Source: a virus
Strand: one strand, 5' to 3'
Length of the DNA stretch: 64,000 nt
IMG/VR virus record: IMGVR_UViG_3300027712_001262
Coordinates: 48,864 to 112,863 of that record
Both the position numbers and the translations under genes were made by a program. Under the pieces are notes generated by a model. The model was not told the DNA's origin, did no database searches, and saw only the letters and a list, made by a program, of their open reading frames with translations. Position 1 is the first letter of the stretch. Each line of letters starts with the position of its first letter. Shown in pieces: positions 4,370 to 64,000 of this stretch.

Positions 4370-4384
4370 TATTAAATTCCTTAA

Positions 4385-5608: not shown

Positions 5609-5610
5609 AA

Positions 5611-7863: not shown

Positions 7864-7906
7864 TTGTAATTCCTTTAATTATTTGCCTTTTGCGTCAGCG
7901 TGTTAT

Positions 7907-7936
7907 ATTATATATGCTTTTTAAAGCCGCTGTCAA
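7907..7936 (-). promoter_or_regulatory. Sigma70-type promoter for the sugar-nucleotide operon
   Basis: On the minus strand TTGACA (7931-7936) and TATAAT (7907-7912) are separated by 18 nt, a full match to both consensus hexamers. Transcription would start near 7900, about 37 nt before the gmd ATG. The spacer holds a dyad, GCTTT-AA-AAAGC, a possible operator. Confidence 0.8.
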
Positions 7937-7952
7937 TAAGATATTGGCTTTT

Positions 7953-7977
7953 AATAAAGAAAACCTGCCAAAGCAGA
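7953..7977 (-). terminator. Weak rho-independent terminator after the 7982 gene
   Basis: On the minus strand TCTGC-TTTG-GCAGG (7977-7964, one T-G pair) is followed by TTTTCTTTATT. It lies just past the stop of the upstream glycosyltransferase-like gene and before the gmd promoter, separating the two transcription units. The stem is only 5 bp. Confidence 0.4.
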
Positions 7978-7981
7978 TTAA

Positions 7982-31596: not shown

Positions 31597-31624
31597 ATTA
31601 TACACTACAGGTACTGTGTGTCAA
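31597..31624 (-). promoter_or_regulatory. Consensus sigma70 promoter with dyad spacer, directly before the 1361-aa gene
   Basis: TTGACA (31619-31624), 16-nt spacer and TATAAT (31597-31602) on the minus strand. The spacer holds ACAG-TAC-CTGT. The -10 box ends 7 nt before the ATG at 31589, so the transcript would start at or next to it (leaderless). Confidence 0.75.
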
Positions 31625-38640: not shown

Positions 38641-40479
38641 ATGGCTTGGATAGCTGGTATCACACGTGGACATAATGGAGCAGTGTGTCTTTTAAAAGAT
38701 GGAAAAATAGTATTTGCTATAGAAGAGGAAAGATTAAGTGGATTTAAATACGATGGATCTCCACTACTTGGAATGTCATTAATACAAAAATATACCGACA
38801 AACTCGATTATTTGGTAATTACAGGTACTTATTCACTAGCAGGGGATGTTTATAACCGGTTGGAGTGGACCGAGGAAAATATTTATGCAGGTTATGCTAG
38901 GAAATTAGGGCTAATTGATCGAGATATTACCAAATCAAAAAATACAGAACATCCTGATTCACAAGTCATTGACGTTGGAACCCAACATCATAAAATGCAT
39001 GCCTCTTGTGCATTTTATAGGTCCGGATTTGATCAAGCAGTTGCAGTGATTTTAGATGGTGGGGGATCAGGATTTACATTGCTAAATTCAACTAATAGCC
39101 GTGTATTTGAAGTAGAAACCATATTTAAATGTTCATACCCAAATACATTTACAACTCTATATAAACACATGGCCGGATCTGGTCCATTTAAAAATAATAA
39201 AAGTTATGATTTTAAAGATCCACTCGAATATGATCATGCTCCCCAAACAGCAGGCACTGGTATTCTTAAAGTAACTACCAGTGCAGGTATTGTCAAAGCA
39301 TACGAAGCAGTCACTGAATTCTGTGGTTGGCAAGGCATCGAAGCGGGAAAAACTATGGGATTATCCCCTTACGGAAAATCAAACAGCCTTATACCACCAA
39401 TATATACCAAGGACATTGACGGATTTTATTGCGGTAATAAATCCATGTTTACGCCTAACTATCCGCAAACTGCATTTATAGATAATGATATGAGTATCAT
39501 GTCAGATACATTTTTATCTAATGAGAAAGATAAAACAGTATTACAAGATCGAAGAGACATGGCATATGCTGTTCAGAAACAAAGTCAAGAAGTTGTGCTA
39601 AATCTCATACTTAGGGCTGTGGAAATGTCTGGTATAAAAAATGTAGTATTATCCGGTGGGTATGGATTAAATTGTGTGGCTAATTATTTTTATCTCGAAA
39701 AACTAAATGAATTAGGTATTAATTTGTATGTTGAACCAGTGAGTACTGACGCTGGTCTCAGCGTGGGTGCTGCATTATATATGCATCATAAATTAGAAAA
39801 AACTGAAAAGCCATTACCACGTGATACTAATTTATATTTAGGCATTGATTTTACATATACACCTGAACTGATCAATCAGTTGGTATCACAATATAATGGT
39901 GTTGAAGTATTAGAAAACATTCACAGTGATCAAGTTTCTCAAATTTTAAGAGATAAAAACATTGTTGCATTATTTCAAGGATCATCTGAAATTGGGCCAC
40001 GAGCATTGGGTAATCGAAGTATTATATTTGATCCAACTTTTAAAGACGGAAAAGATTTTGTCAATAATGTAAAACGCAGAGAATACTTTCGACCATTTGC
40101 TGGTAGTATTCTACACGAACATGTAAATGAATGGTTTGATATGCGGGGACTTGAAGAAAGTCCCAATATGATGTATGCTGTAAATTGTCAGCCAGGTGTT
40201 GAAGAAAAAATTCCCAGCATCATACACATTGACGGCACCTGTCGAATTCAAACAGTAAAACCTCAGCAGAATCCATTATTTTATGAGTTGATATCAGAAT
40301 TTTATAAATTGACAGGCGTTCCCATTTTATTCAATACCAGTTTTAACCTCGGTGGAGCACCCATGGTTGAAACATTGCATGATGCAATACATACATTGGT
40401 AAACAGTGATATTGAATATCTCTACTTACCAGAATATAAGATATTAATAACAGCAGAAAATCAACCCGAGGAATTTTAA
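38641..40479 (+). CDS. O-carbamoyltransferase (NodU/CmcH/TobZ family)
   Basis: 612 aa. The N-terminal part has AGITRGHNGAVCLLKDGKIV, EEERLSGFKYDG, QHHKMHASCAFY (His pair) and VILDGGGSG, the carbamoyl-adenylate domain of the family. The C-terminal part (from about 350) has LSGGYGLNCVANY, FQGSSEIGPRALGNRSIIFD, EYFRPFAGSIL and ILFNTSFNLGGAPMVE. The two-domain family first makes carbamoyl-AMP from carbamoyl phosphate and ATP, then carbamoylates a hydroxyl, usually of a sugar. Its stop overlaps the next gene start (TAATG). In this phage it may cap a glycan or modified base. Confidence 0.88.
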   Translation: MAWIAGITRGHNGAVCLLKDGKIVFAIEEERLSGFKYDGSPLLGMSLIQKYTDKLDYLVITGTYSLAGDVYNRLEWTEENIYAGYARKLGLIDRDITKSKNTEHPDSQVIDVGTQHHKMHASCAFYRSGFDQAVAVILDGGGSGFTLLNSTNSRVFEVETIFKCSYPNTFTTLYKHMAGSGPFKNNKSYDFKDPLEYDHAPQTAGTGILKVTTSAGIVKAYEAVTEFCGWQGIEAGKTMGLSPYGKSNSLIPPIYTKDIDGFYCGNKSMFTPNYPQTAFIDNDMSIMSDTFLSNEKDKTVLQDRRDMAYAVQKQSQEVVLNLILRAVEMSGIKNVVLSGGYGLNCVANYFYLEKLNELGINLYVEPVSTDAGLSVGAALYMHHKLEKTEKPLPRDTNLYLGIDFTYTPELINQLVSQYNGVEVLENIHSDQVSQILRDKNIVALFQGSSEIGPRALGNRSIIFDPTFKDGKDFVNNVKRREYFRPFAGSILHEHVNEWFDMRGLEESPNMMYAVNCQPGVEEKIPSIIHIDGTCRIQTVKPQQNPLFYELISEFYKLTGVPILFNTSFNLGGAPMVETLHDAIHTLVNSDIEYLYLPEYKILITAENQPEEF

Positions 40480-41561
40480 TGACACGACCACAAGCATATT
40501 TTATCAACGGCGGTGCCGGAAGAGTAATTGCATCTATACCAGCTTTTGAAAAATTAGCCGAGACTAACACAGATTTTATAATTGTATGTGAAGGTGGCAG
40601 TGACATGTATCGGGGTCATCCCTTATTAGATCAAAGAGCATATGATCATTGGCATAAAGGAATATTTGCAGAGCAGTTAAAACATAGAGATTTAATTACA
40701 CCAGAACCATATCGTGTATGGGAATATTATAATCAAATGTGCAGTCTTTCACAGGCTTTTGATATTGCCATTAATAATAAAGGAATACGTAAATTACCTG
40801 CACCCTCTATTCATCTTAATAAACTTGAAATAGCAGAAGCATACCGATTTATGCAAGAAGTAAAGACCAGATCGGGATTTGAAAAAACTATAGTTATACA
40901 ACCATTTGGTCGAAGTGTTATCGCTAATCACGGAATGATTGTTGATCCCAGTTCAAGAAGTTTTGCTCAGAATGATTTAATAGATATAGTCAATTCCTTA
41001 AAAAAGGAATACGGTGTAATTGTTATGAGCGAATTTGGTAATATTACAGGAATTGAAGCAGCTACTCCAAAAATACCGAACATTAGGATATGGGCTGCAA
41101 TTATTGAACTAAGTGATTACTTCCTGGGCTGCGATAGTGTGGGACAACATATGGCAAGAGCATTGGAAAAACCTGCTACAGTTGTTATCGGATCTACTTT
41201 TCCTATTAATGTGAGTTATCCAGATTATTCTAATTTTACAATAATTGACATTGGTGAAAAACAAAGAATATATAGCCCAATTAGAATATCACAAGAAGAT
41301 GCCATTGAAAGACATAATGATGCATGTATGGAAATGTCCGATGAAGATAAGAGACAAATTGTGAAATCTATTAAGAATAAACTTGGAAAATCAGTTAAAT
41401 CTGCTGTAAAACCGTCTGTGAATGCCAATACACAGATAGATAACACCCATATACATAATCATGGGGTAAATCCCGTTAACAATGATTTTAAATTAAATCC
41501 ACTTTCAGAAGAATTATCAAATAATTTTCCAAAATTAGTTAGCAGTCCAAACTTGTCTTAA
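40479..41561 (+). CDS. GT9-like glycosyltransferase (heptosyltransferase type)
   Basis: 360 aa. The N-terminal half has NGGAGRVIASIPAFEKLAE (a GT-B glycine turn). The second half has IVIQPFGRS near 150 and FLGCDSVGQHMARALEKPAT then VVIGSTFP near 220-240. The D-S-x-x-x-H-x-A-x-A-x-x-x-P pattern is characteristic of GT9. The last 100 residues are low-complexity and hydrophilic, not part of GT9. It is translationally coupled with the carbamoyltransferase. Its end overlaps the convergent fibre gene by 27 bp. Confidence 0.7.
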   Translation: MTRPQAYFINGGAGRVIASIPAFEKLAETNTDFIIVCEGGSDMYRGHPLLDQRAYDHWHKGIFAEQLKHRDLITPEPYRVWEYYNQMCSLSQAFDIAINNKGIRKLPAPSIHLNKLEIAEAYRFMQEVKTRSGFEKTIVIQPFGRSVIANHGMIVDPSSRSFAQNDLIDIVNSLKKEYGVIVMSEFGNITGIEAATPKIPNIRIWAAIIELSDYFLGCDSVGQHMARALEKPATVVIGSTFPINVSYPDYSNFTIIDIGEKQRIYSPIRISQEDAIERHNDACMEMSDEDKRQIVKSIKNKLGKSVKSAVKPSVNANTQIDNTHIHNHGVNPVNNDFKLNPLSEELSNNFPKLVSSPNLS

Positions 41562-46336: not shown

Positions 46337-49300
46337 TTAAGAATTAACATAATTAATAGACACATACAAATCTGCTGCATATGCCCCTGTATTAGTTATG
46401 ATAACTGTAACATTTGATGAAGATGATGCGATTGAAATAGGAGTATTAGTACCATAACTCGGTCCGAGACCTGTAAAACTAATTGTACTCACAGTCACAT
46501 CATCAACATTAATATTTAGCGAAACAGCTTGGGTACCAGAACTTAAAACTCTGGCTGTGATACTGTTAATTAAAATAGTTCTGTTTGGAAACCATTTTGA
46601 AGTATATAAACTACTGTATCCAGTGAATAAACTACCCGGAGTATAAACTTGAGCAACTAATGCAGTAGATCCACCTCCACCCACAGCACTACCATTTTGA
46701 TAAATTGTTCCGCCGACATATAAAGATCCGCCGATCCCCACTCCACCTCTAACTACTAATGCACCTGTGGTAGTTGATGTTGAGCCAGTAGCATTAGTTA
46801 TAACAAATGTTGAGCTAGTTCCAGTACTATTAGATGCACTACTACCAGTATACCCTATTGCTGTAGATGCGCCAGAAGCTCCAACACTACCGGTAAAACC
46901 CAGTGGGCCTTGAATTTTAGTTATAGAAGTCCATGTCGAGCCGCTCCATATCCACAAAAATCCGTCAACAGCAGTAATATATGCATCTCCTTTAGAACCA
47001 GTATATGACATTGGAGCTGTTTGATAACCAGGCAAGTCAGTCGACGTTGAAACAGAACCTATGATAGATATGGATGATCCGGGATTACCCTCACTTCCAG
47101 TATAACCATTACTACCTATATATCCACTAGCGGTGCTTGCTGATCCAGTATAACCTCTACTACCAGTAAATCCTATGCTACCAGTGTAACCTGTGCTACC
47201 TATGTATCCACTAGCAGTGCTGGCTGATCCAGTATAACCAACACTACCCCAATACCCTGTGCTACCTATATAACCAACACTACCCCAATAACCTGTGCTA
47301 CCCCAATAACCTGTGCTACCCCAATAACCAACACTGCCCCAATAACCAGTAATACCTTGTGTACCGGTACTACCAATAAAACCTGTGCTACCCCAATAAC
47401 CAACACTGCCCCAATAACCAGTAATACCTTGTGTACCGGTACTACCAGTATAACCTGTGCTACCTATATATCCTAGACTACCAGTAAAACCTGTGCTACC
47501 TATATATCCTAGACTACCAGTAAAACCTGTGCTACCTATATATCCTAGACTACCAGTATAACCTGTGCTACCTATATATCCTAGACTACCAGTAAAACCT
47601 GTGCTACCTATATATCCTAGACTACCGGTATATCCCTTACTGCCCCAATAGCCAGTAATACCCTGACTACCCGAATACCCGATTGGTCCTGTTTCTGAGT
47701 TTGCAGGACCGGCAAATGTCCATTCATTGCTAGCTACTTTAATCACCGTAGCGATAGTGAACGGAACAGTTAAAGTGGGAGTTTCCGTAGTATGTAACGT
47801 TACTCCAAAAAATCCTGATATGATTACAGGTCCAGTGCCTACGTTACATAAATCAATACGTTGACCCACAGCAAAATTAACTCCCCCCTCTGATGGAATA
47901 TATACCGTAATAGGCGAACTATTAGTAAATTCAATAAGTGTGCCGGCATCTGACAATGCTAGAGTATAACTTCCTGATTGCGTACTAATAGCTTGTATTG
48001 AATCAAATCCACCTTTACTACCAGCATATCCCTCACTACCCCAATATCCATTAGTTCCGTTGGTTCCATTAGTTCCACCACTACCCCAATACCCCTGGGC
48101 ACCTCTGCTACCAGTAAATCCAACAGCTCCTGCAACACTGGTAGCAGGACCGGCAAATGTCCATTCATTGTTGGCTACTTTAATCAACGTACCAATACTA
48201 TATTGACTGTTTAAAATAGCAGAGTCCGAAGTATGTAAAGTTACTCCCGCGGCTGCGGCTATAATTACAGGACCTGTACTTATCTGACCTATATCTATAC
48301 GTTGACCAACACTGAAATTAACAGTATTATAGTCTGGAATAGTTACTGTAGTACCATTAGTAGTATCAAAATTAACTAGGCCACCAGCATCTGACAATGC
48401 TAGAGTATACGTTGCTCCTGTTTGAGTACTAATAATCTGTACTGAATCAAATCCACCTCTACTACCAACATATCCTGCACTGCCTGTAAATCCTACGCTA
48501 CCTATATATCCAAGACTACCAGTATATCCTCTACCCGCATATGCTCCATCTGCCCCAACACTACCGGTAAATCCCTTTTCACCCTGACTACCAGTATATC
48601 CTGCACTTCCAACGTAACCTGTGCTACCTATATATCCACTGGCAGTGCTGGCTGATCCAGTATAACCGGTGCTACCTATATATCCCACGCTGCCAGTAAA
48701 TCCCATGCTGCCAGTATATCCCACGCTGCCAGTAAATCCCATGCTGCCAGTAAATCCCATGCTGCCAGTATAACCAGTAGATCCGTTAAAACCAAGTCCG
48801 ATAATAGTTCCATTTAAACTAATAGCACCAGTTACGTTTAAAAGGCCACCCACATATAAATTTTCAGCAATGCCAACGCCACCTTTGACTAGCAACGCAC
48901 CTGTACTGGTTGATGTACTGCTGGCAGTATTTGCTATTAAAAATGTGCTGGTGGTACCTGAACTGTTAGCATTAATAGCTTGACCATTAGAACCAAAAAT
49001 TTGCCCACCCACATATAAATCTTTAGCAATACCAACTCCACCGTTGACTACCAATGCACCTGTACTAGTTGATGTACTGCTAGCAGTATTTGCTATTAAA
49101 AATGTGCTGGTGGTACCTGAACTATTATCACTAATAGCTTGACCATTAGAACCAAAAATTTGCCCACCCACATATAAATCTTTAGCAATGCCAACTCCGC
49201 CATAAACTATCAATGCACCTGTATTGGTTGATGTACTGCTGGCAGTATTTGATATTAAAAACGCCCTAGTGGTACTTGTATTTGAAACTAAAAAACCTTG

Positions 49301-49816
49301 AACATACAAGGAACCGCCAATAAATAAACTACCGCGTACACCTACACCACCTGCAACTGTTAATGCACCAGTAAAAGTATTAGCTGCAATTGTTGTATTG
49401 GAAATATTGATAGCTTGATTAGTTGATGATCCTCTGCTAGTAATAGTTTGTAATGTACTAGTATTCCAAATAATAATATTACCAGTACTGGTACTAACTG
49501 CTGTATCTGTGCCAGCAGTTATCGATGTTTGATTTGCATAATTATTAATCGAAGCAGTGGTAATTACTTGTTGATTATTTGAATATATATCGCCGCCAAC
49601 ATATAATTTCTCACCTATGCCCACGCCTCCCGAGACCACCAATGCACCTGAGTTAGTCGATGTTGATGCAGTGTTGTTAATTATCTGAAATATTTCAGTT
49701 GTACCATCAATAAATGCTGATACGATTGTCCAAGAATTGCTTGAAGCAGAGTAAACGTAGGTAGTTCCATCTACAACGGCTGTTTCATTGTCTACGGGTG
49801 AAATTGGAAATGTCAT
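46337..49816 (-). CDS. Long tail fibre with SGALVVxGGVGI modules and collagen-like GYTGS repeats
   Basis: 1159 aa. About six modules of the type SGALVV-GGVGI-K-LYVGG form the N-terminal 330 residues plus one near the C-terminus. Two collagen-like blocks are built of G-x-x-G-S (GYTGS, GFTGS, YWGS, YIGS). Between them lie two similar 100-residue beta domains ([12 protein letters not shown] and [12 protein letters not shown], each followed by a GQRIDxxxxxTGPVII strand). [11 protein letters not shown] then LWIWSGSTW module precedes the tip. It should be a long trimeric fibre. Ser and Thr in the repeats are potential glycosylation sites. Confidence 0.7.
46860..47690. repeat. Collagen-like GxxGS repeat tract (15-bp unit)
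   Basis: Near-perfect 15-bp units encode G-(Y/F)-(T/I/W)-G-S on the minus strand, with 45-bp higher-order copies at 47457-47640. A smaller tract lies at 48460-48780 in the same gene. Confidence 0.85.
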
Positions 49817-49831
49817 TCTATTATTTAACCG

Positions 49832-52800
49832 TTAAAAAGTTATCGTGCCTGAAGTTTGCCAGGTATATATTCTATATCCATTATTTACTGTTGCAATTGC
49901 ACCACTTACAGAAGTTGGTCCCAAATATGTATTAGGATATCTAATAATTACAACACCCTTACCACCGTTATAGCCTGCCCCGCCACCGCCGCCGGTATTT
50001 GGGGTACCAGCAGTTCCCGATGTATCAGAACTTGCGCCAAGGCCGCCGCCGCCTTGTCCACCCTGTCCACCGTAAGTTCCATTATGTGATGAATAATATA
50101 ATCCACCACCACCACCACCTGCATAATAAGTAGCAGTACCAGATATAGCTGATGCGGATCCAATACCACCGCCACCGCCAGACCCGCTGCCATTAGAACC
50201 TGCGCCACCGGCGCCGCCGCCGCCGGCACCAAGAAACGGAGCATTATACTGACTCACTGATCCCCCAACATTGCCTTGGTTGCCAGTTGCATTACCTCCC
50301 GTACTATTACCATTTCGACTAGCACCGCCGCCACCAGACCCTCCAGTACCAGCAATGCTAGTACTAACTCCACCACCACCGCCACCGCCCAATGCAGTTA
50401 TGTTATTGCCAAATTGCGAATAATCACCAGATGAGCCGTTGCCTCCAAAGTTAGATCCCACTGCGCCACCGTTACCTACAGTAATTGTATAACTTGTACC
50501 AGTACTAATAGAATATCCAACACCTGTCAAGAAACCGCCTGCACCGCCACCGCCTGCATATGCACCATCGGCACCGCCCCCACCGCCACCTCCGACCACT
50601 AGATATTCTATAGTAATTGGGGCTGTTATACTTGTTAGATTTTTTACAAATTTTACTTTTTGTCCGGTGAAATCTAACCAGAACTTATCGGTATTGTTAA
50701 CAGTGGTATATCTATATAACCTGTCATTGTTAGTATTATACCAAATATCTCCTACAGTAGCAACTACTGGAGCAGTAGAACTAGAGGTGCTTCTTACTCC
50801 ACCAGCAATAATGCTAGTAGCATTAATTTGTCCGCCTACACCTAATCCCCCTGTGATTACTACAGCACCTGTAGTTATTGATGTACTAGTTGCGGTGTTG
50901 GTAAAGGAAACAACATTAGTAGTTGTTGCTCCTCGACCAGTTATACTTTGTAGTGTGCTGGCGTCATTAATTATGATTGATCCAGTAGTTGCACTTAGCG
51001 TAATATCCGTGCCACTAGATAAGTTCGTAACACCCAAGTTAGTAATAATTACATTGCCGCTACTAGTGCTTACACCAATGTATGTACTACCAGTTGCAGT
51101 AGTAACGCCAGTATTAGTAACAATTATATTACCGCTACTGGTGCTTACACTAATGCCAATACCAGCAGTTATTGATGTTTGATTAGCATACAGATTAACC
51201 GTGGCCGTGGTCAATACTATATTACCACTACTATATATTGTGCTATTAACATATAAGTTTCCACCAATACCTACACCGCCACGAACAATCAATGCACCGG
51301 TTGTAGTTGATGTTGAACTTGTAGTATTGGAAATACTAATAACTTGAGTAGTTGATGATCCTCTACTAGTAATAGTTTGTAATGTGCTGGTATTCCAAAT
51401 AGTAATATTACCAGTGCTGGTACTAATTGCGGTATCAGTACCTGCTGTAATAATAGTTTTATTTGCATAATCATTAATTGTTGCAGTGGTAATTACTTTT
51501 TGATTCTTGGTATAAATATCCCCGTTGACCTGTAGATCCCCACCTATACCTGCACCGCCTAATACAACCAGTGCACCTGTGGTAGGATTATCTGCTGAGG
51601 TAGCATTAGATATTGATATTGCATTGCTAGTATCTGAACCTCTATCAGTAATAGTTTGTAATGTACTAGTATTCCAAATAGTAATATTACCAGTGCTGGT
51701 ACTAATTGCAGTATCAGTACCTGCTGTAATAATAGTTTTATTTGCGTAATTATTAATCGTTGCAGTGGTAATTACCTTTTGATTTTTGGTATAAATATCC
51801 CCGCCAACCTGTAGATCTCCACCTATACCTGCACCCCCTGCAACTACTAACGCACCTGAATTAGTACCAGTCGAATTAGTAACATTATAAGTTGATATTA
51901 TGTCATCTGTTACAATCAACGTTGTGGTAATTGTGGTTAATTGTATTTCCAATTCTTGAGCAACAATTTTTCCACCAACATACAAATTGCCGCCAATACC
52001 AACACCACCTGTAACTTTCAATGCACCTGAGTTAGTTGAAGTTGCACTAGTTACATTAGTAATTACTATAGTATTAGTGGTAGAACTTCCTCTATTAGTA
52101 ATAGTTTGTAATGTACTGGTATTCCAAATAGTGATATTACCAGTACTGGTACTAATTGCAGTATCAGTACCTGCTGTAATAATAGTTTTACTTGCATATA
52201 GGTTAACCGTAGCAGTGGTAATAATTTCTGAATTAATAATATAAGATGTGGTATTAACAAATAATGCACCACCTACATATACATCTTTAGCAATGCCAAC
52301 TCCTCCAGTCACTTGTAAGGCACCTGAATTAGTGCTAGTTGACTGGGTTAAATTATTAATAAGAAATGAGCTAGTAGTACCTGTACTACTACCTACCAAA
52401 GATCCATTTGAATATACACTGCCTGCAAATACTCCGCCACCTACATATACATTTTTAGCAATGCCAAGTCCACCATATACAACTAATGCACCGGAACTAG
52501 TGCCGGTTGACTGGGTTAAATTATTAATAAGAAATGTGCTGGTTGTGCCTGTACTGCTACCAACCAAAGATCCATTTGAATATAGATTTCCTGCATATGT
52601 TGTGCCGCCAACATACAGATCTCTATTAATACCCACACCACCATATACAACTAATGCACCGGAACTAGTGCCGGTTGAATTAGTACTTGTAGTAATTCTT
52701 AGTACTAGATCAATGACTGACTGGCCGAACTTACTGGTCAATCCACTTTGTGTAGTTAGAACTTCAACGTTATTAATAAGGGCTTTGCCCAATATGTTGA

Positions 52801-53089
52801 TATCGCCAGCTATGCCAACACCACCATCTACTACCAGAGCATTGGGAGTATAAAAACCTATGTTAGATAATGTTGAGCGTACACGTACTGTGGCTCCATC
52901 AATTGTAAGAAGATTCGACCAATTACGTATATTTGTAGCAGTTGATCCAGTAAGTACACTGCCATTAATAGTTGGAGAGCCAAGATCCGGTTCTGCTTGA
53001 CTAGTATCTAAATATTCGTAGCGATCAGCAGTTAACTTTGTACTGCCTAATTTCTTTATTTTACCGCTGAATAATCTACTTTTACTCAT
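49832..53089 (-). CDS. Tail fibre with nine SGALVVxGGVGI modules and a glycine-rich tip
   Basis: 1085 aa. Starts with SRLFSGKIKKLGSTKLTADR, then nine or so modules of the form (S/T)GAL-V-GG-GI-x-L-VGG spaced by TST linkers and repeated [11 protein letters not shown] strands. The last 250 residues are a glycine-rich domain (YLVVGGGGGG, GGAGG, GVVIIRYPNTY) like those in the 31641-38066 adhesin, ending in YTWQTSGTITF. A fibre whose tip is a polyglycine receptor-binding domain is the likely role. It overlaps the 113-aa gene by 8 bp. Confidence 0.7.
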   Translation of the reverse strand: MSKSRLFSGKIKKLGSTKLTADRYEYLDTSQAEPDLGSPTINGSVLTGSTATNIRNWSNLLTIDGATVRVRSTLSNIGFYTPNALVVDGGVGIAGDINILGKALINNVEVLTTQSGLTSKFGQSVIDLVLRITTSTNSTGTSSGALVVYGGVGINRDLYVGGTTYAGNLYSNGSLVGSSTGTTSTFLINNLTQSTGTSSGALVVYGGLGIAKNVYVGGGVFAGSVYSNGSLVGSSTGTTSSFLINNLTQSTSTNSGALQVTGGVGIAKDVYVGGALFVNTTSYIINSEIITTATVNLYASKTIITAGTDTAISTSTGNITIWNTSTLQTITNRGSSTTNTIVITNVTSATSTNSGALKVTGGVGIGGNLYVGGKIVAQELEIQLTTITTTLIVTDDIISTYNVTNSTGTNSGALVVAGGAGIGGDLQVGGDIYTKNQKVITTATINNYANKTIITAGTDTAISTSTGNITIWNTSTLQTITDRGSDTSNAISISNATSADNPTTGALVVLGGAGIGGDLQVNGDIYTKNQKVITTATINDYANKTIITAGTDTAISTSTGNITIWNTSTLQTITSRGSSTTQVISISNTTSSTSTTTGALIVRGGVGIGGNLYVNSTIYSSGNIVLTTATVNLYANQTSITAGIGISVSTSSGNIIVTNTGVTTATGSTYIGVSTSSGNVIITNLGVTNLSSGTDITLSATTGSIIINDASTLQSITGRGATTTNVVSFTNTATSTSITTGAVVITGGLGVGGQINATSIIAGGVRSTSSSTAPVVATVGDIWYNTNNDRLYRYTTVNNTDKFWLDFTGQKVKFVKNLTSITAPITIEYLVVGGGGGGGADGAYAGGGGAGGFLTGVGYSISTGTSYTITVGNGGAVGSNFGGNGSSGDYSQFGNNITALGGGGGGGVSTSIAGTGGSGGGGASRNGNSTGGNATGNQGNVGGSVSQYNAPFLGAGGGGAGGAGSNGSGSGGGGGIGSASAISGTATYYAGGGGGGLYYSSHNGTYGGQGGQGGGGLGASSDTSGTAGTPNTGGGGGAGYNGGKGVVIIRYPNTYLGPTSVSGAIATVNNGYRIYTWQTSGTITF

Positions 53090-53423
53090 TGCTTGTTTCT
53101 AAAATACTTAAAACTAAATTAACACTGCCATTAGCGCCGGCGCTAGCAGTTATACTTGCACCGGTTTCAATTACTAGTTTCCCTGTAATAACTTCACAGG
53201 CATCGTTTACAGGTATTTCGAAATCTTTTAGCATAATAAATTCAGTGGCATTTTTAACCAAAGTAAATTTTACAGTAACAGGATCTATACCAATATTAGT
53301 AGCTTGGGCGCCAAGTACAATAGTAGTTACTGTGTCCGGAGTAGTATAGATGGTTTGGGCATCAGTAGTTAATTCAAATGCTTTAGTTTTAAACGAATTT
53401 AAGGGTAGTGCTGCGGTTGCCAT
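53082..53423 (-). CDS. Small beta-sandwich-like virion protein (113 aa)
   Basis: LTTDAQTIYTTPDTVTTIVL, VTVKFTLVKNA and FEIPVNDACEVITGKLVIET form a pattern of beta strands like small fibre or baseplate accessory proteins in T4-like phages. It lies between two long fibres with a 3-bp gap to the 1659-aa gene, and ends inside the next fibre start. Role inferred only from context. Confidence 0.55.
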   Translation of the reverse strand: MATAALPLNSFKTKAFELTTDAQTIYTTPDTVTTIVLGAQATNIGIDPVTVKFTLVKNATEFIMLKDFEIPVNDACEVITGKLVIETGASITASAGANGSVNLVLSILETSNE

Positions 53424-53426
53424 TTT

Positions 53427-56400
53427 TTATGATCCTATTGCTAATATATACGGTGTCATGACCGCAAACAGACTTTTTGTAAATGTTCTTCCAGAAATTG
53501 TTCCTATACTGTTATTTATAACCAAGTCATTTCCAATTCTAAAATCTCCCTGTTGATCTGTTGCGGTGTAATAAACTTTGCCACCATTAATAGCTATAGC
53601 ATAATTATCGCTGTTTGGTTCACCTCCCAAGAACGGTAATGCAGCATCAATATTAATACCTGCACCAATCCATTCAAAATTATGTGAAGAACTTTGTATC
53701 TGACTATATTGATGGAATGTTACTACAGTATTATCATTGATTGTTGACGGTACTGTTGTTTGTAGAACAACAGTACTTGAATATTCATTTTCCACTACAT
53801 TAGCAATTATATCTACTAATGCTTGGGCTCGTAATGATTCTACGCTAGTAGCAGTAGTATAACTAACAATTTGAGTTAACGCGGTATACCTAGGAGTAAA
53901 TGCGGTATTTAATACTACATTATCTATAATATCTTTAATACGAGAGTAACCAGCAATAGTGGCTAATTTTTGTTTACTTGGAACTCTTAATACGCCACCA
54001 TCATAATATGCATCACCGGCTTTAGCAGTTTGACTATTACCGTTATATAATAAATCATAACTTACTGCATCTATTATGTAACCGACATCTCGTTTACAGG
54101 TTGCAGTACTGTACACTAATCCCACATAGCTAGTATTGATAAATGCCACAGTTTCTGCCTGTATAAAAGTTCTATTTGCTAATAATAAATTAAAAGCGTT
54201 TTTTACGCTTACATTTGTACTTTCAGTAAGAGGAATAGAAACTTTTGGAAGAGCAACACTTGGACCATTAATAATAATATTTGTTATGGTAGATATTTTA
54301 GAATTAATTAATCCAACTTCTATAGATGTTGCTGTATTAGCACTAACGGTTTGAGTAACTGTACTTTGATAGGGATTAGTTATTAAACTACCTTTAATAA
54401 TAGATGATGAAATATCTCTGATAAAATTATATGCAGCAGTAGTCTGCGGTATTTCGTTAGCGATCACAGTGGCTGTTGAATCAGTATTATAACCATAATA
54501 GTAGACTCCGCTCATAACGCTCTGTCTATTACCACCATGCAATAAATCAAATGCTACACTATCAAGAATATATCCAACATCACGACTACAGGTATCTTGA
54601 TTATAACTATATAAACTATTAACATAGCCAACTGTTTCTGCTTGTATAAAACTTCTATTTGCTAATAATAAATTAAAAGCATTGACAAAAGTAGTAGTAG
54701 AAGTGGCAGTTAATCCAATTGGGATTTTAGAAGTTACTACGCCTGGACCATTATTAATAATATTTGTTATTGTATTGATATTATTAACTATTAATGCTGC
54801 TTCAACAGAAGTTGCTGTATTAATACTAATAGATTGTTTTATAATACTTTGATAACGCGGAGTTACTGTAATACCTTGTATTATATTGCTTGTAAGTGTT
54901 TTAATATAATTGTATGCAGCAGTAGTCTGTGCGATTTGGTTAACTATTACAGTAGATGAACTATTAAAATTGTAATAATACACACCACTCATAACACTTT
55001 GTCTATTACCACCATGTATTAAATCAAATGCAATAGAATCAATGACGTATCCCAAATCTCTATAACATGTAGATGTATTAAATGTAAATGATGGATTATT
55101 AGTAGTAATCCAATTGAGTGTTAATGTTTGTAATTGAGCTTTTGAACTTCTGATTACATTATATGCATTTACAATATTTGTAGTAGTTTTTCTAACACCA
55201 TTTGGAACTATTAATGAAGTTATACCAGTATCATAATTCTTGTCTATTTCTATAATTAGACCATCAATCATAGCAAGTTTAACTGCTAATAACAGTTTGG
55301 CAGAAGTACTTGTGGTTGTAGGGTATACTATTACAGGTAAAGAATTGGTATTACCGCTAGATATAACTCCTTTAACTATATTAACTAATGAGTCTAACTC
55401 TGTTGCTTCTGTAGCAGATGCAGGATTAGTTATGATTTGTGTTAATCCATCATTAGTAGTTGAAGGTGTAACCGTTTGTCCTTGAACGATTTGACCAACT
55501 ACAGTTTGTAGTCTAGTATAAGCAGCAACCGTAGCAGCTATTTCTGATCCTCCTATTAATAAACTTCCCGAAAAATATGCAGACGCAGCACCTCGGCTTG
55601 CAGTATTTCCGCCATACATAACATCGTAGCATAATGCATCGATTATATATCCCACATCTCTAAAACATTTACTTGAACTATAAGTTAAATCAGAATAGTA
55701 ATCGTATATATACGCAATAATTTCTGTTTGTATATATGTTTTATTAGCAATTAATAAGTTTTTAGCTTTGATAGCATTTGCGCTACGTGCGGTATTATTA
55801 TTAAACACCAACGCCGATGGAGTTGATCCATTAATAATATTTGTTATTTCATCAAACTTTACATTAGCAGTAGAAGTTGATAATGATTGAGCTGTTTGCG
55901 TTTTTAAATAATTTATAGCAAATAATGTTTGTGCTAATTCAGTATTCAACACTATATTTGTTGATGTTATGTATCGACGATATGCAGCACCGGCAGTAAC
56001 TGAATTATAATTAGTACCAAACGCCACATCATATGCAACACCAGTTAGAATAATATCAGAATCTCTTCTGCAGGTTGTTCTGTTATAATTTAGATATACA
56101 GTTCCGGTGTTAAAAATATATAATAATGTGTTAAAATTATTGCTAACACTAGTACCAACTGTGGCACCACCAGCTGCTATTACATTTCCTACTAATAATC
56201 CTTTTAAATATGATATTGCGTTACTAGTAGTAGTTAATTGTGAGCCGATGATCCCAGTATATCCTGTATTTTGACTCCAATATTGTAATCCCGCAAACGT
56301 TGATTGACTAGTGCCACCGTATAATAGATCAAAAGCCACCGAATCAACTATTAATCCTACATCTCTACTGCATTTTGCTTGATTATATGCAAATCCATTT

Positions 56401-58406
56401 GAATATGTAGAATTTATCCAACTAATAGTAGCTTCTTGTAATAAAGACCTACTAGCAACAATAGCATTATATGCGGCCACTGTACTGGTATTAGTCGTCG
56501 CAGTAGAATTAGGAACGATTTGAGATGAGATACCACTTGTACCAGTATTTAAAATATACAATATCTTATTAAAATTATTTGTAACTGTTGTGGCAGCAAC
56601 CGTTCCTCCTGTTGCACTACTGATAGCAATTACTTGATCTCGCACATATGCAATTGCTGCACTAGTAGTAGTTAATTCTCTACCAATAGCACCTGTAAGG
56701 CCTGTTTGACTCCAATATTGTAATCCAGCAAATACACTTTGACTAGTGCCGCCCTGCAACAAATCAAATGCAATAGAATCAACAATGAGTCCAGTGTCTC
56801 TATAACATGTGGCGGTGTTATAAGTAAAATTGCTAATATATCCCACTGTTTCTTCTGCTATGAGAGTTTTGTTAGCTTGCAAGATTGTTACAGCCTTGAG
56901 AGCATTTGTAGCAGTAGTGCTAGTATTAATAGAAGGAAGATTATATGTTATAGCAGGTATTACACCATATCCGTTTTGAACTATATCTAATAGTAAAACA
57001 AATAAAGCATTAACTCGATTATATGCAGCACTACCACTTGTTAAGGATGCTAATATTTTATTTTGTAAAAATACAATAGCGTTTATAGTTTGTGTTTTTT
57101 GAGTAGTAATTACATTAGAACCTGATGCTCGATAATAACTTGAACCTGCTTGTATAGTTTGATAATTTGTGTTTAATACCATGTCATAGGATATTGCATC
57201 TATAATATTACCTACATCTCTGCTACATTTAAATTGATTAAAACTAAACCCTGGAAATGCTTCTAAAATATGATTAATGGTTAATATTTGTAATTTTGCT
57301 TTTTCATCTAAAATAGTTTGTCTAGCATTTCTTAACACAGCATCATACTGACTATTGTCCCAAACTACACTTAATGGATATACAATATCTGTAGATCCAG
57401 TTTTAAATGCAGTACTTGAAGCAACAGCATAATAATTACCATCTCCAAAATTTACAGCATCGCCTATAGCCGGTTTAGTTCCAAGTCCGTCAATAACAAA
57501 TGTTCTCCCACTAGTGTCGCCTACAACCTTACCAGCATGTCTAATAGCTCCAACACCGTCTGCATATAATGCATAATTACCAAAGCTACTGTTACTGTTG
57601 GTAATAGAACAAAATCCGCCTGATTCGCATAAGTACCCTATATTGCAACATATAGTAAAAACTGATACTAACGAAGCATACCCGCTGTTTAACATGTGAA
57701 TGCCAATACCGCCTTGATTATACTGTGTAAATGCATCAACCATCATGCTCTTTGTTCCCAATGCATGATTGCCGTTGACCCGCATACCGGTTCCGTCAGT
57801 GGTCATGCTAGTACAGTTTTGTACATATGGACTTGTTGATATAACACCTGCGCTACCGTCAATTGGAAATGCTATTGCTGCTGCTGGTGCTTCATGTCCT
57901 TTAAACGTTATGTTTGCTATGTATACACCATTGTTTACATAAAATATGTCGTTGGTTGATGTTGTGGCTCTGACATTGACTGTTCTTAAATTATCACCCA
58001 CAATAGCAACAGACTTTGGAACCGTTATAGGAGTAATCTCAGTGTAATCACCGCTTTTAACAAAAATAGTAGTACCAGTGGTTGCGATTGCTACCGCTGC
58101 TTTAATAGTGAGTTTAGATTCGTTTAAAGTTGTTCCGCTATAAGAATCATTGCCGCTTTTACTTACATATAATACATTTTGAACAGCAATACTAGGGCCT
58201 TGCGGACCTTGAATACCTTTACTACCAACATAACCCTGTATACCACCGTAGGGTAAATCATTCCAATGCAGAATACCGTTACCAATTTTAAATAAATTAG
58301 TATTGGTTTCGATACCCATTTCTCCCTGGGCAAGAATAGGATTTGCGGTACCTGTATTGCTCCATTCTGTGGATGTACCGCGTCTAAATTGAATTTGAAT
58401 TGCCAT
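53427..58406 (-). CDS. Large fibre with beta-helix head and eight CxRDxG repeats
   Basis: 1659 aa. The start IQIQFRRGTSTEWSNTG and ILAQGEMGIETNTNLFKIG is the fibre attachment module, followed by a GYVGSKGIQGPQGP mini-collagen stretch. Residues 75-290 are a beta-helix (YVSKSGNDSYSGT; GDYTEITPI). Residues 380-1540 hold eight repeats of 120-150 aa with the core C-x-RD-x-G-x-I-x-D-x-(V/I)-x-(F/Y)-D-(L/V). Six of them go on to GG-x-x-x-S/T. The C-terminus is a short beta tip. A CATAAATA motif lies 26 nt upstream. Repeats differ enough to suggest old duplication. Confidence 0.7.
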   Translation of the reverse strand: MAIQIQFRRGTSTEWSNTGTANPILAQGEMGIETNTNLFKIGNGILHWNDLPYGGIQGYVGSKGIQGPQGPSIAVQNVLYVSKSGNDSYSGTTLNESKLTIKAAVAIATTGTTIFVKSGDYTEITPITVPKSVAIVGDNLRTVNVRATTSTNDIFYVNNGVYIANITFKGHEAPAAAIAFPIDGSAGVISTSPYVQNCTSMTTDGTGMRVNGNHALGTKSMMVDAFTQYNQGGIGIHMLNSGYASLVSVFTICCNIGYLCESGGFCSITNSNSSFGNYALYADGVGAIRHAGKVVGDTSGRTFVIDGLGTKPAIGDAVNFGDGNYYAVASSTAFKTGSTDIVYPLSVVWDNSQYDAVLRNARQTILDEKAKLQILTINHILEAFPGFSFNQFKCSRDVGNIIDAISYDMVLNTNYQTIQAGSSYYRASGSNVITTQKTQTINAIVFLQNKILASLTSGSAAYNRVNALFVLLLDIVQNGYGVIPAITYNLPSINTSTTATNALKAVTILQANKTLIAEETVGYISNFTYNTATCYRDTGLIVDSIAFDLLQGGTSQSVFAGLQYWSQTGLTGAIGRELTTTSAAIAYVRDQVIAISSATGGTVAATTVTNNFNKILYILNTGTSGISSQIVPNSTATTNTSTVAAYNAIVASRSLLQEATISWINSTYSNGFAYNQAKCSRDVGLIVDSVAFDLLYGGTSQSTFAGLQYWSQNTGYTGIIGSQLTTTSNAISYLKGLLVGNVIAAGGATVGTSVSNNFNTLLYIFNTGTVYLNYNRTTCRRDSDIILTGVAYDVAFGTNYNSVTAGAAYRRYITSTNIVLNTELAQTLFAINYLKTQTAQSLSTSTANVKFDEITNIINGSTPSALVFNNNTARSANAIKAKNLLIANKTYIQTEIIAYIYDYYSDLTYSSSKCFRDVGYIIDALCYDVMYGGNTASRGAASAYFSGSLLIGGSEIAATVAAYTRLQTVVGQIVQGQTVTPSTTNDGLTQIITNPASATEATELDSLVNIVKGVISSGNTNSLPVIVYPTTTSTSAKLLLAVKLAMIDGLIIEIDKNYDTGITSLIVPNGVRKTTTNIVNAYNVIRSSKAQLQTLTLNWITTNNPSFTFNTSTCYRDLGYVIDSIAFDLIHGGNRQSVMSGVYYYNFNSSSTVIVNQIAQTTAAYNYIKTLTSNIIQGITVTPRYQSIIKQSISINTATSVEAALIVNNINTITNIINNGPGVVTSKIPIGLTATSTTTFVNAFNLLLANRSFIQAETVGYVNSLYSYNQDTCSRDVGYILDSVAFDLLHGGNRQSVMSGVYYYGYNTDSTATVIANEIPQTTAAYNFIRDISSSIIKGSLITNPYQSTVTQTVSANTATSIEVGLINSKISTITNIIINGPSVALPKVSIPLTESTNVSVKNAFNLLLANRTFIQAETVAFINTSYVGLVYSTATCKRDVGYIIDAVSYDLLYNGNSQTAKAGDAYYDGGVLRVPSKQKLATIAGYSRIKDIIDNVVLNTAFTPRYTALTQIVSYTTATSVESLRAQALVDIIANVVENEYSSTVVLQTTVPSTINDNTVVTFHQYSQIQSSSHNFEWIGAGINIDAALPFLGGEPNSDNYAIAINGGKVYYTATDQQGDFRIGNDLVINNSIGTISGRTFTKSLFAVMTPYILAIGS
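53850..57260. repeat. Eight diverged protein repeats (about 120-150 aa each)
   Basis: Repeat cores (RDVGNIIDA, RDTGLIVDS, RDVGLIVDS, RDSDIILTG, RDVGYIIDA, RDLGYVIDS, RDVGYILDS, RDVGYIIDA) are spaced through the 53427-58406 gene. Confidence 0.7.
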
Positions 58407-58431
58407 TTTAAGTGTTATGTGTAATTTGTAA

Positions 58432-58439
58432 TATTTATG
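58432..58439 (-). promoter_or_regulatory. Late-type promoter motif CATAAATA
   Basis: CATAAATA on the minus strand, 26 nt before the 1659-aa gene; it overlaps the 3' end of the preceding fibre gene. Confidence 0.45.
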
Positions 58440-59892
58440 TTAAAACGCCGCCTGCATCTAAACTGGTAATTCCACCGTATACTGAATCGGGACGACCGCC
58501 ATCAAAGTTACCTATAATTGCATTACTAGCACTGCCTGTGTACCCATCTCTACCGATAAATCCTGAACTACCTGTATATCCGTTGCTGCCTATATATCCA
58601 AGACTACCAGTATATCCTCTACCCGCGTATGCGCCATCTGCCCCAACACTACCGGTAAATCCAAGACCAAAACTACCTGTAAATCCCCTTTCAGTGCTGG
58701 CAGAACCAGTGTAACCAAAACTACCCCAATAACCAATACTACCCCAATATCCATTGCTACCCCAATATCCATTGCTACCCCAATACCCTTGGCGGCCTTC
58801 ACTGCCGACATAACCTGTACTACCGATATATCCGCTTGCTGTACTAGCACTACCAGTAAATCCAGTAAGTCCAACTACCCCTCGACTACCTGTATAGCTT
58901 GTACTACCTGTGAATCCCACACTACCCGTATAACCTGTACTACCTATATATCCACTAGCAGTACTTGCCGAACCTGTAAAACCAAAACTACCCCAATATC
59001 CCTGATCACCTTGACTACCTGTGAATCCCACACTACCAGTAAATCCTAAACTACCAGTGAATCCATAAATGCCCTGACTACCTGTGAATCCAAAACTACC
59101 CCAATATCCCTGATCACCTTGACTACCTATGAATCCCACACTACCGGTAAATCCAAAACTACCAACGTAACCTTGACTACCTATGAATCCCACACTACCA
59201 GTAAATCCAAAACTACCAGCAAATCCCACACTACCGGTATAACCTCGACTACCAGTATAACCAACACTGCCCCGATAACCAACACTGCCCCAATAACCAA
59301 CACTGCCCCAATAACCTGTAATACCTTGTGGGCCTTTGATTTCTCCTGCATCTATCCAACTAGCTCCACTCCAAATCCAAAGATGGCCAGTATCTGTGGC
59401 AATATAACCATCGCCACGTGTTCCAGAAGGTGGCAAATCGGATGAAGCTGCTACTGATCCCAGGATATTAACAGAAGTACCATCTGCACCACGACTACCC
59501 ACATAACCAACACTACCAGTAAAACCGGTAGCTGTGCTTGCTGAGCCAGTATATCCAAATTCAACCAAGGTCCAGTTTGCTTCAGCATTGGGACTTGCAC
59601 CAGTAGAACTATTTCTAACTTCACTGGATAATAATTTATATGTATAATATCTACCGCCCGATCTAGTATATCCACTAGCGGTATAGGTTGTTGTGACATA
59701 TACAAGCATACCTTCTTGCAATCTTTGACCGTAGATATCTGTTAATCTATCACCGGAATTTCCTGTAATACTTTGCAACGATCCGCGTATTTCAGTATCT
59801 AAAACAATCGGCTGATTGCTACTAGGGCTCCATGTACCGGGCCATAGATTTCGCGTTAATCCATCATAATTTGTGCTTGTAGTTGAACTCAT
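58435..59892 (-). CDS. Collagen-like tail fibre (485 aa)
   Basis: A head of about 110 residues ([28 protein letters not shown]) precedes a [12 protein letters not shown] then [11 protein letters not shown] module near 130-190. Next comes a long GxxGS collagen-like tract (190-455), and a short tip follows ([14 protein letters not shown]). The WIWSG module recurs in the 46337 and 59889 fibres, so fibres here share swappable parts. Its start overlaps the upstream fibre stop (ATGA). Likely a trimeric fibre. Confidence 0.7.
58530..59310. repeat. Collagen-like GxxGS repeat tract in the 58435 gene
   Basis: 15-bp coding units of G-(F/Y)-(T/V/W)-G-S with QGDQGYWGS inserts; minus-strand frame intact throughout. 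Confidence 0.85.
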
Positions 59893-62800
59893 GTTATACT
59901 CACATATGTATTACCGTTTTGCAACGTAATTCCATATAAATTATATGTAACTGCAACATACCCTGGTAATGGACTATCTGGTTGTAGATTAACAGTATTA
60001 CCTGTGACCACAGTTACATCACTTAACAACCCCGCACTTGCACCTGTTCTAAATGTAGTAGGTTGACTTCCACCAGCTCTTACAGCAAACCAAAGTGCTT
60101 GTGGTCCTCCACTTGAATTATTAATTAATCCTACTAACGAACTTGTTAAATTTGCTAATTGTGTTACCCCTGAGGAAAATCCCGTACCTGTTACATATGT
60201 TGATCTAGTGGGTATTGTTGACGCACCAGCAGTAAATACCCACAATGAAGGATAGGTAAATGAGGCATTTGGATTTGACGATGTTGCTGATACTATAATG
60301 TCATAGGCTGTACCGGTAACTGAACTAGGTCTTTTAAATGTAGTTGTAACTAACACAGTTCTACCACCTGTATTGTCTTTATGTAGACGGTCAGTAAATG
60401 TAAAAGTACCCGAGCCAAAACCGTTATCAGCAGTTCCTCCTGCTATAGATACGCTGTGGGGGAAATTTACAGCATTTGTCATACCTGTTACAGTAATTGT
60501 ATATGCAACCGAGGCATAACTTTGTAAAAAAGTCAATCCTGTTAAATTAGACAACGAAATTGATAACGTAGGAGTTGCCCAATTAATTGACCAAGTGGCA
60601 GGTATTGCATATGACACAGTACTTGATCCATCGTAGTAACTAACTCCCACTTGAGCACTAACGGTGCTACCGGCAATAGTACTACTAATAGGTCTTATAT
60701 ATGCAGAGCCGCTATACGTAAAGCCTTGTATCCAACTTATTCCTCCAGCAGGAGTATTCGATGGCGTCTGTGCTATAAACGTTGAGAATGCACTTATAGA
60801 TCCTGCTGTGGCTGTAATTGATGTAACACTATTGATATATTGATCTGTAATATCCGGAGGATTAGTAACATTCACAATAAATCCCGAGGCAGGAACATCC
60901 CAATTTAACGATGCACTAGGAGAAGGCACTGAAGACACCACGGGTGTAAATGTTGCCAATGTTAATTGCAATTTATTAGCTACAAATGCAGCAGTTCTAA
61001 CTGGTTTAGTAACTAAATTTTCTTTATATCCTGTTAATGTTCTATTATCACCACTTGCAGTCCAAACTAATGTTTCATTGCCTGACCCTGCACCAGATGC
61101 AATATTAATAGTTACATTATTACCAGTAGCAACAGCAGTAACTCCTGTGCCTGTAAATGCAATACTAGTTACATTTTGTGTTAATGTGGTAGCATTAGCA
61201 ATGATAGCTACTGCCGATCCAGCTCCCGCACTACCAACATAACCTGTGCTACCTATGTATCCACTGGCAGTGCTGGCTGAACCAGTATAACCTTTGCTAC
61301 CGGTATATCCTAGACTACCAGTGTAACCTGTGCTACCTATATATCCACTAGCAGTGCTGGCTGAACCAGTATAACCTGTGCTACCCCAATACCCTGTACT
61401 ACCAGTGTAACCTGTGCTACCTATATATCCACTAGCAGTGCTTGCCGAACCTGTATACCCAAAACTGCCCCAATAGCCAGTGTCTCCTTGACTACCAGTA
61501 TACCCTGCGCTACCTGTATATGCCATACTACCAGTATAACCAAAGCTACCTGTATACCCAAAGCTACCCCAATACCCAGTGTCTCCTTGGCTACCTGTAT
61601 ATGCCATACTACCAGTATAACCAAAGCTACCAGTATAACCTGTGCTACCTATATATCCTAGACTACCGGTATAACCTGTGCTACCAGTATATCCCAAACT
61701 ACCAACGTAACCTTCACTTCCCCAATAACCGGTAATACCTTGTTCGCCGAGAGGACCTAGACTACCAGTATACCCAACACTACCGGTATACCCTGTACTA
61801 CCTATATATCCACTTTCGGTGCTGGCTGATCCTGTAAAACCAACACTACCTGTATAACCTAAACTACCGGTATAACCTGTGCTACCTATATATCCTAAAC
61901 TACCAACGTAACCTTCACTTCCCCAATAACCTTGTTCGCCTTGACTACCTGTAAATCCTAGACTACCTTGAATACCTTGACTACCGAAATATCCTGTAAG
62001 ACCTTTTGAGCCTGTAAATCCTTTACTACCAGTATATCCTAGACTACCAGTATAACCAAAGCTACCCCAGTAACCGGTAATTCCTTGACTACCGGTAAAA
62101 CCTCGACTACCTGTGTATGCCGTACTACCAGTGTAACCAAAACTACCAGTATAACCAAAACTGCCCCAATAACCAACACTACCTCGATATCCAGTGGATC
62201 CCCAATACCCTTGATTACCTTGACTACCTGTAAATCCTGTTTTACCAAAACTACCAGTATAACCTCGAACTCCACGAGCACCTGTAATCTGCCCAATCTC
62301 GTTCCATTGAGATCCGTCATATAAGTAAAGATATCCCGGAAAACCAGCTGTTACATCGCCAACAATCCAGCCGTCACCAAGTTCGGGATCTGGCGGTAAA
62401 TTTCCAATAGTTAAAATACTACCTAGAATGTGTACTGAATCGCCTCGATCACCTTGACTACCTGTATAACCTAGGCTACCATCATATCCCTGACTGCCAA
62501 CATAACCAAAGCTGCCGCTGTATCCACTACTACCCAAATACCCTGTAGATCCCCAATAGCCGGTAATACCTTGACTACCTGTGTATGCCATACTACCAGT
62601 ATACCCTATACTACCAGTATAACCAAAGCTACCCCAGTAACCGGTAATTCCTTGACTACCGGTAAAACCTCGACTACCTGTGTATGCCATACTACCAGTG
62701 TAACCAAAACTACCAGTATAACCAAAACTACCCCAGTAACCAGTAATTCCTTGACTACCTGTATATGCCATACTACCAGTATAACCTAAACTACCAGTGT

Positions 62801-64000
62801 AACCTGTACTACCTATATATCCTAAACTACCAGTATATCCAATACTTCCCCAAAAACCTTGATCGCCCGTACTACCAGTATATCCAATACTTCCCCAAAA
62901 ACCGCGTAATCCCTGTCCTCCGGTGAATCCCCTACTACCAGTATATCCATCAATACCTTGACTACCAGTGTAACCAAAACTACCAGTATAACCAAAACTA
63001 CCCCAGTAACCAGTAATTCCTTGACTACCTGTATATGCCATACTACCAGTATAACCAAAGCTACCAGTATACCCTAAACTACCAGTATAACCAAAACTAC
63101 CCCAATATCCAGTGTCTCCTTGACTACCAGTATACCCTGTACTACCAGTATAACCAAAACTACCCCAATAACCTGTACTACCAGTATAACCAAAACTACC
63201 CCAATAACCTGTACTACCAGTATAACCTGTGCTACCCCAATACCCTGTACTACCAGTATAACCTGTGCTACCCCAATATCCTGTACTACCAGTATAACCA
63301 AAACTACCCCAATAACCTGTACTACCAGTATAACCTTTGCTACCCCAATACCCTGTACTACCAGTGTAACCTGTGCTACCTATGTATCCTAGACTACCGG
63401 TAAATCCAAAACTACCCCAATAACCTGTACTACCAGTATAACCCGTGCTACCTATATATCCTGTACTACCAGTGTAACCTGTGCTACCTATGTATCCTAG
63501 ACTACCAGTATATCCCTCACTGCCCCAATAACCTGTACTACCAGTGTAACCTGTGCTACCTATATATCCTGTACTACCAGTGTAACCTGTGCTACCTATG
63601 TATCCTAGACTACCAGTATATCCCTCACTGCCCCAATAACCTGTACTACCAGTGTAACCTGTGCTACCGGTATATCCTAAACTACCAGTGTAACCTGTGC
63701 TACCTATGTATCCACTGGCAGTGCTGGCTGAACCAGTATAACCTGTGCTACCCCAATACCCTGTACTACCAGTGTAACCTGTGCTACCTATATATCCACT
63801 GGCAGTGCTGGCTGAACCAGTATAACCTGTGCTACCCCAATACCCTGTACTACCAGTGTAACCTGTGCTACCTATGTATCCACTGGCAGTGCTGGCTGAA
63901 CCAGTGTAACCTGTGCTACCGGTATATCCTAAACTACCAGTATAACCTGTGCTACCTATATATCCACTAGCAGTGCTGGCTGAACCAGTGTAACCTGTGC
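59889..64000 (-). CDS. Very long collagen-like tail fibre, 5' end beyond the window
   Basis: At least 1369 codons in one frame. The in-window ATG at 63041 is internal: the GYTGS coding frame continues without a stop to 63998. Collagen-like G-x-x-G-S runs (with [14 protein letters not shown] and QGITG inserts) fill about two thirds. [11 protein letters not shown] then [10 protein letters not shown] module interrupts them near 62300-62450. The C-terminal 430 residues, from about 61180 to the stop, form a beta-rich non-repeat domain ([24 protein letters not shown] end). Several Ig-like strands suggest a receptor-binding tip. The rest is probably a triple-helical shaft. Confidence 0.75.
62030..64000. 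repeat. Dense GYTGS collagen-like repeats with an 84-bp higher-order unit
   Basis: 15-bp units in tandem. Near the right edge an 84-bp unit occurs at 63712, 63796 and 63880 with very few changes. A tract of the same type lies at 61220-61980. Confidence 0.85.

Follow-up and report, generated by a model that had tools for sequence, protein, structure and literature searches.

Virion glycosylation has been demonstrated in few bacterial viruses, and the phage glycosyltransferases (GTs) of host-recognition islands are usually dismissed as modifiers of lipopolysaccharide (LPS). As reported in passages of two later articles, the mycobacteriophages Che8, Corndog and Myrna use their own GTs to O-glycosylate virion proteins, and the glycans lie at the C-termini of capsid and tail-tube proteins (Freeman et al. 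2023, via PMC12363180, PMC12619734). At the Fap1 locus of a serine-rich repeat adhesin, the products of gtf1/2, gtf3, dGT1, galT2 and gly act sequentially in the cytoplasm on the protein backbone (PMC5207161), and the spore collagen BclA carries glycosylated Gly-X-Y repeats that are rich in Thr at Y (PMC8968730). Pelagimyophages, which are aquatic T4-like phages, encode GTs among their tail-fibre genes, and the passages of PMC7029224 that deal with them interpret these as LPS-modifying. Here we analyze a fused multi-module GT and the collagen-like tail fibres encoded in the window, by which we mean the last 64 kb (64,000 nucleotides) of the 112,863-bp IMG/VR virus record IMGVR_UViG_3300027712_001262; the end of the window is the end of the contig. 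A preliminary description of this DNA had proposed that the fibres are coated by neighbouring enzymes with a methylated or carbamoylated glycan.

We judge it somewhat probable, slightly above an even chance, that the phage dedicates this enzyme to the stepwise O-glycosylation of its own fibres, with methylation as an option. A broader claim, for which we consider the chances balanced, is that a phage-exclusive single-polypeptide module of three or four GTs and an optional methyltransferase, widespread in aquatic phages and transcribed in many relatives from a late bidirectional promoter that also serves the fibre gene, builds an O-glycan on proline-free, Tyr/Ser/Thr-rich collagen shafts. We infer the activity, acceptor, sugar, methylation target and benefit of the enzyme as follows. 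A soluble multi-module GT would build a short O-glycan stepwise from nucleotide sugars in the cytoplasm. Its target would be the phage's own tail fibres, most likely Ser/Thr (or Tyr) residues in the shafts of the proline-free GYTGS collagens. O-methylation of a sugar would fall to the FkbM module, where present, and the glycan could make a collagen helix without proline more stable or more soluble.

As in the mycobacteriophages, the GT is encoded by the phage itself, but its putative acceptor is the shaft of a collagen-like fibre, in contrast to the capsid and tail-tube C-termini reported for those phages. In function, the proposed glycosylation would resemble that of the Fap1 locus and of BclA. 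The likeness to the Fap1 locus lies in GT genes beside a repeat adhesin, whereas the phage GTs are fused (they are split into two or three genes in relatives L027 and L198), and a virion protein needs no accessory Sec system. The passages of PMC7029224 on pelagimyophage clusters describe no specific link between GYTGS repeats and a GT. A further comparison is offered by A197 of Sulfolobus turreted icosahedral virus (STIV), a candidate enzyme for coat-protein glycosylation in that virus (PMC4187194). A197 (PDB 2C0N) shares the GT-A fold of module 4 of the present enzyme (Foldseek TMt 0.72, E 2.5e-10; sequence E 0.0015), but it is a single-domain, uncharacterised GT of an archaeal virus.

The enzyme contains four GT modules, as the preliminary description had counted and as Pfam matches and folds confirm, followed by a C-terminal FkbM methyltransferase domain (Table 1). 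In an alignment with ten diverse relatives, the motifs DGDD (residues 536-539) and DxD (residues 990-992) were invariant. AlphaFold models of both halves were good, with mean predicted local distance difference test (pLDDT) scores of 89-91. Foldseek matched the N-terminal half to GT4 enzymes and the C-terminal half to heparosan and chondroitin synthases, STIV A197 and polypeptide GalNAc-transferases, and hydropathy gave the protein no membrane-protein character. Module 3 and the FkbM domain are optional among relatives and, as judged from these domain contents and the split genes mentioned above, the family is a natural fusion/fission series.

The family is phage-specific. It was encoded in at least 581 viral stretches and matched once in the genome contigs of 84,980 species. 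A search of the phage collection with the window's enzyme (P0002) gave, among the matches listed, only partial, module-level ones, with no mycobacteriophage named, and it yielded no cultured phage that carries the GT-fibre pair. The single match on a prokaryote contig (NZZP01000034.1, L194) belongs to a gammaproteobacterial metagenome-assembled genome and carries the same head-to-head GT-collagen layout as marine phages; because of this layout, it is probably a phage contig that was binned into that genome. Module-4-like GTs occur in the cyanophages S-TIM5 and S-SCSM2R without an annotated collagen fibre beside them; therefore, module 4 alone is not diagnostic.

The DNA from position 31641 to the contig end consists mainly of tail-fibre genes on the minus strand, and three of them, P0003, P0004 and P0006, encode collagen-like shafts. 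Their products matched the Pfam Collagen family PF01391 (8.9e-104, 2.6e-34 and 4.2e-43, respectively) as well as phage tail-fibre PHROGs. Collagen was scored as strict G[^G][^G] triplets, a metric that replaced a first version in which poly-Gly runs counted as collagen. The resulting Gly-X-Y runs comprise 798, 249 and 354 residues, respectively, far above the shuffle maxima of 15-30, and therefore they are not due to chance. Across 452 triplets, X was Ser in 46% or Tyr in 37%, Y was Thr in 40%, and the X and Y positions contained 0.4% proline and 30% aromatic residues. The long Gly-X-Y repeats of collagens are thus present and the usual proline-rich X/Y positions are absent; the fibre resembles BclA in being Thr-rich at Y but differs in its scarce proline, its aromatic residues and the putative status of its glycan. 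The block from 46337 to 63998 holds 113 G[YF]TGS and 41 TST/STS motifs. Collagen-like fibres are real in this block, as first described, but the "thousands" of Ser, Thr and Tyr then announced amount to 1,934 among the 5,870 residues of six fibre open reading frames (ORFs), with 583 of them inside collagen runs.

The GT is linked to GYTGS collagens across hundreds of viral contigs. Nearly all records compared are fragments, and their shared ancestry means that Fisher values overstate independence and that p-values are descriptive; the carbamoyltransferase family served as the control for neighbour and co-occurrence counts. In a GT-side sample of 106 loci, the upstream neighbour was fibre-like in 67/91 cases, compared with 0/79 for carbamoyltransferase. 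A fibre-side sample was built without use of the GT, from relatives of P0004. There, the GT was found in 24 of the 47 records with a P0004-like fibre and in one of 47 carbamoyltransferase records (Fisher 4e-8), and all 33 loci that contained the GT start had it head-to-head with a collagen ORF, across a gap of 59-117 bp. GYTGS repeats were present in 27/40 GT records, including 13 of the 15 with a length of 40 kb or more, and in 1/40 control records, namely the single control that also carries the GT. Gene order, co-occurrence and promoters (see below) strongly support the earlier proposal that the GT is tied to the fibres, apart from its carbamoyl part.

The link is specific to this repeat. 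Among 80 collagen-bearing viral records chosen by a sequence-neutral G-x-y pattern, composition flagged L270 and L327 as GYTGS-like before the GT was searched for, and both carry it. One of the remaining 78, L323, is GT-positive without GYTGS composition, so that 3/80 carry the GT overall. A second set of records was selected by GYT repeats; in it, the GT was present in 20/29 records with at least ten G[YF]TG[ST] motifs at the locus and in 1/20 with fewer (p=6e-6). The GT therefore tracks GYTGS collagens specifically, not collagens generally.

Such linkage might arise if the GT and the GYTGS fibres were neutral neighbours hitchhiking within one phage lineage, the substrate of the GT being unrelated. 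The contigs are indeed related, and clades of the GT tree share gene order. However, the head-to-head GYTGS state appears in both halves of that tree when it is rooted at its midpoint, and it needs six changes, of which the starred branches force at least five; gene order has thus switched between head-to-head and same-strand while co-occurrence persisted. Moreover, the two were gained or lost together in close relatives, which we took to be records no shorter than 50 kb that encode an NrdB with 80% or more identity to the window's own: the GT and GYTGS were both present in two, both absent in seven and discordant in none. The sample is small, but this concordance argues against mere shared ancestry, and we consider hitchhiking improbable.

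The spacers between head-to-head genes carry sequence motifs on both strands. The motif TATAAATA, which we take to be the T4-type late promoter consensus, was found on the GT strand in 20/25 spacers and on the collagen strand in 19/25, and 4% of random segments contain it on either strand. The palindrome TATTTATAAATA was present in 15/25 spacers. These motifs suggest a bidirectional late promoter common to the GT and the collagen fibre, and the two are probably co-expressed late, because head-to-head spacers carry TATAAATA on both strands.

The main rival to fibre glycosylation, which we regard as rather unlikely, is that the GT modifies host LPS or capsule and thereby blocks superinfection or the re-adsorption of progeny, its association with fibres reflecting a common host-recognition island or receptor. 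The GTs of pelagimyophage host-recognition clusters were so interpreted by their authors, according to the passages concerned (PMC7029224). GT4 and GT2 modules are common in polysaccharide synthesis, and the PDB matches of the enzyme include teichoic acid, heparosan and chondroitin enzymes. In the clade of the window, the GT gene has a strong and conserved promoter of the sigma-70 type, which points to early expression. Against this rival, the link is to one shaft repeat, GYTGS, and does not extend to fibres or collagens generally, a bidirectional late-promoter motif is common to GT and fibre, and prokaryote genomes hardly ever contain a member of the family. Genes for membrane-linked transfer, a flippase or a ligase were likewise not seen: by hydropathy, none of the proteins seen on the contig was a large polytopic one of the flippase or ligase type, and the window ORFs include no polytopic protein, in contrast to the membrane set (GtrA, GtrB, polytopic GtrC) of serotype-converting O-antigen modification. 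Both readings predict linkage of fibre and GT; we favour the fibre over a host receptor as the target because of the shaft-repeat specificity and the common late promoter.

Several observations weigh against fibre glycosylation. A GT that modifies the host surface would likewise show linkage to a receptor-binding fibre. The fold matches are to GT folds generally, with polysaccharide synthases ranking equally high, and they do not name an acceptor. Two of the 15 long GT records lack GYTGS, and nine of the 29 GYTGS-rich records lack the GT, but almost every record is a fragment. The window's own GT gene has a strong sigma-70-type promoter, which fits early expression and a host target. Among same-strand relatives of the window clade, 29/49 score at least 11/12 for such a promoter, compared with 5/1000 random segments. 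Finally, the GT does not adjoin GYTGS genes within the window. The four-module enzyme had been placed next to the repeats, but it lies 51 bp downstream of a Gly-rich/laminin-G fibre, and the nearest GYTGS gene is 14.7 kb away, in the same island only. The clade of the window mostly has a same-strand fibre instead of the head-to-head GYTGS arrangement, directly upstream of the GT in 32/49 rows, and the laminin-G fibre is a possible alternative glycan acceptor in this clade.

A separate observation concerns the promoter itself. The GT start codon lies so close behind a perfect -10 box (7 nt) that a leaderless or nearly leaderless transcript is implied, and this arrangement is conserved in relatives.

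The carbamoyltransferase named in the preliminary description is present (38641-40479), but it does not belong to a fibre-glycan pathway. It forms a conserved cassette with the gene at 40479-41561, a homologue of which was found in 78/80 carbamoyltransferase loci and was adjacent in 61. Most of the phages in which this cassette occurred had neither GYTGS nor the multi-module GT; carbamoyltransferase occurred in only 3/40 GT-carrying records and had a fibre upstream in 0/79 loci. We therefore rejected both genes as parts of the fibre-glycan system, and a carbamoylated fibre glycan is not supported. The partner gene had been called a GT9 enzyme. We dropped this label, since the protein did not match the GT9 family model or any other GT family in Pfam (E up to 1) or PDB, even at relaxed cut-offs; it matched only phrog_8954, a family of unknown function.

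DNA can serve as a substrate of phage GTs, and 5-carbamoyloxymethylcytosine is the product of a phage carbamoyltransferase (PMC8670742), which raises the alternative that hypermodified bases of the phage DNA are what the GT, or else the carbamoyltransferase, decorates. We hold this to be very improbable. The thymidylate synthase/dCMP hydroxymethylase family PF00303 had no match on the 112.9 kb contig, which is possibly partial, and it is a repeat of structural proteins, not the replication genes, that the GT goes with. In addition, MetaGPA reports GT-flanked carbamoyltransferases in unmodified contigs (PMC8670742). Immune evasion, which had been put forward as a benefit of the glycan, finds no support in a free-living aquatic phage.

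A phage-only enzyme family tied to one fibre repeat would constitute a defined enzyme-substrate pair and hints at how proline-free collagens might be stabilised. If fibre glycosylation is correct, many "auxiliary metabolic" GTs of aquatic phages would be reassigned to virion assembly.

The three FkbM units listed in the preliminary description were all recovered, at the C-terminus of the GT enzyme, in a stand-alone gene and at 248-940. The last of these lies in a sugar-nucleotide cluster that encodes a GDP-mannose dehydratase, two epimerases, a C-methyltransferase, a cytidylyltransferase/mannose-P isomerase, a GT34 and the FkbM protein, and that is a possible donor supply for the GT. A small ORF paralogous to module 3 overlaps the GT gene; its start is uncertain, and it has no Pfam match by itself.

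Table 1. Features of the window; module positions are residues of the fused GT enzyme.
Feature	Position	Strand	Basis or remark
Fused GT enzyme (P0002), 1361 residues	27504..31589	-	Pfam, alignment, AlphaFold, Foldseek
GT4 module	residues about 1-410		Pfam
GT2 module	residues 440-690		Pfam
GT2-like module 3	residues 690-905		43.9 bits as GT2; optional in family
Module 4, GT21/Anp1-like GT-A	residues 925-1120		Pfam, fold
FkbM methyltransferase domain	residues 1170-1361		optional in family
Sigma-70-type promoter of GT gene	31597..31624	-	TTGACA-16-TATAAT, 12/12, 7 nt before ATG
Gly-rich/laminin-G fibre, directly upstream of GT	31641..38066	-	Pfam, gene order
Collagen-like tail fibre (P0006), TST-rich head	46337..49816	-	24 G[YF]TGS
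TST-rich/Gly-rich fibre without GYTGS	49832..53089	-	PHROGs, Pfam, motif count
Tail fibre, Mtd_N head and repeats, without GYTGS	53427..58406	-	PHROGs, Pfam
Collagen-like tail fibre (P0004)	58435..59892	-	20 G[YF]TGS
Collagen-like tail fibre (P0003)	59889..63998	-	69 G[YF]TGS; 5' end cut off at contig end
Small GT-like protein, module 3 paralogue	26843..27568	-	similar to residues 690-905; merged tblastn match
Stand-alone FkbM methyltransferase	26136..26846	-	1.3e-12
Sugar-nucleotide cluster	248..8677	-	Pfam; possible donor supply, link to GT inferred
Carbamoyltransferase and partner gene of unknown family, independent cassette	38641..41561	+	gene order, co-occurrence

The fibre with the Mtd_N head contains at least seven repeats of C.RDxG.I.D....D, and one stretch of it matched PF00502 Phycobilisome (9.5e-10); the helical repeats of this phage fibre are phycobilisome-like. 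Elsewhere, the large subunit of ribonucleotide reductase is seemingly distributed over two ORFs (15305-16819 and 14081-15061), possibly owing to an intron or a split gene, and an HNH-like ORF (13335-14024) lies near them. Contig positions 7999-17006 (L004) hold a row of desaturase-like membrane proteins together with an acyl-carrier-protein-like ORF, which is unusual for a phage. An exact 63-bp tandem duplication is located at 22501-22634 of the window, within a Pro/Ala/Gln-rich ORF.

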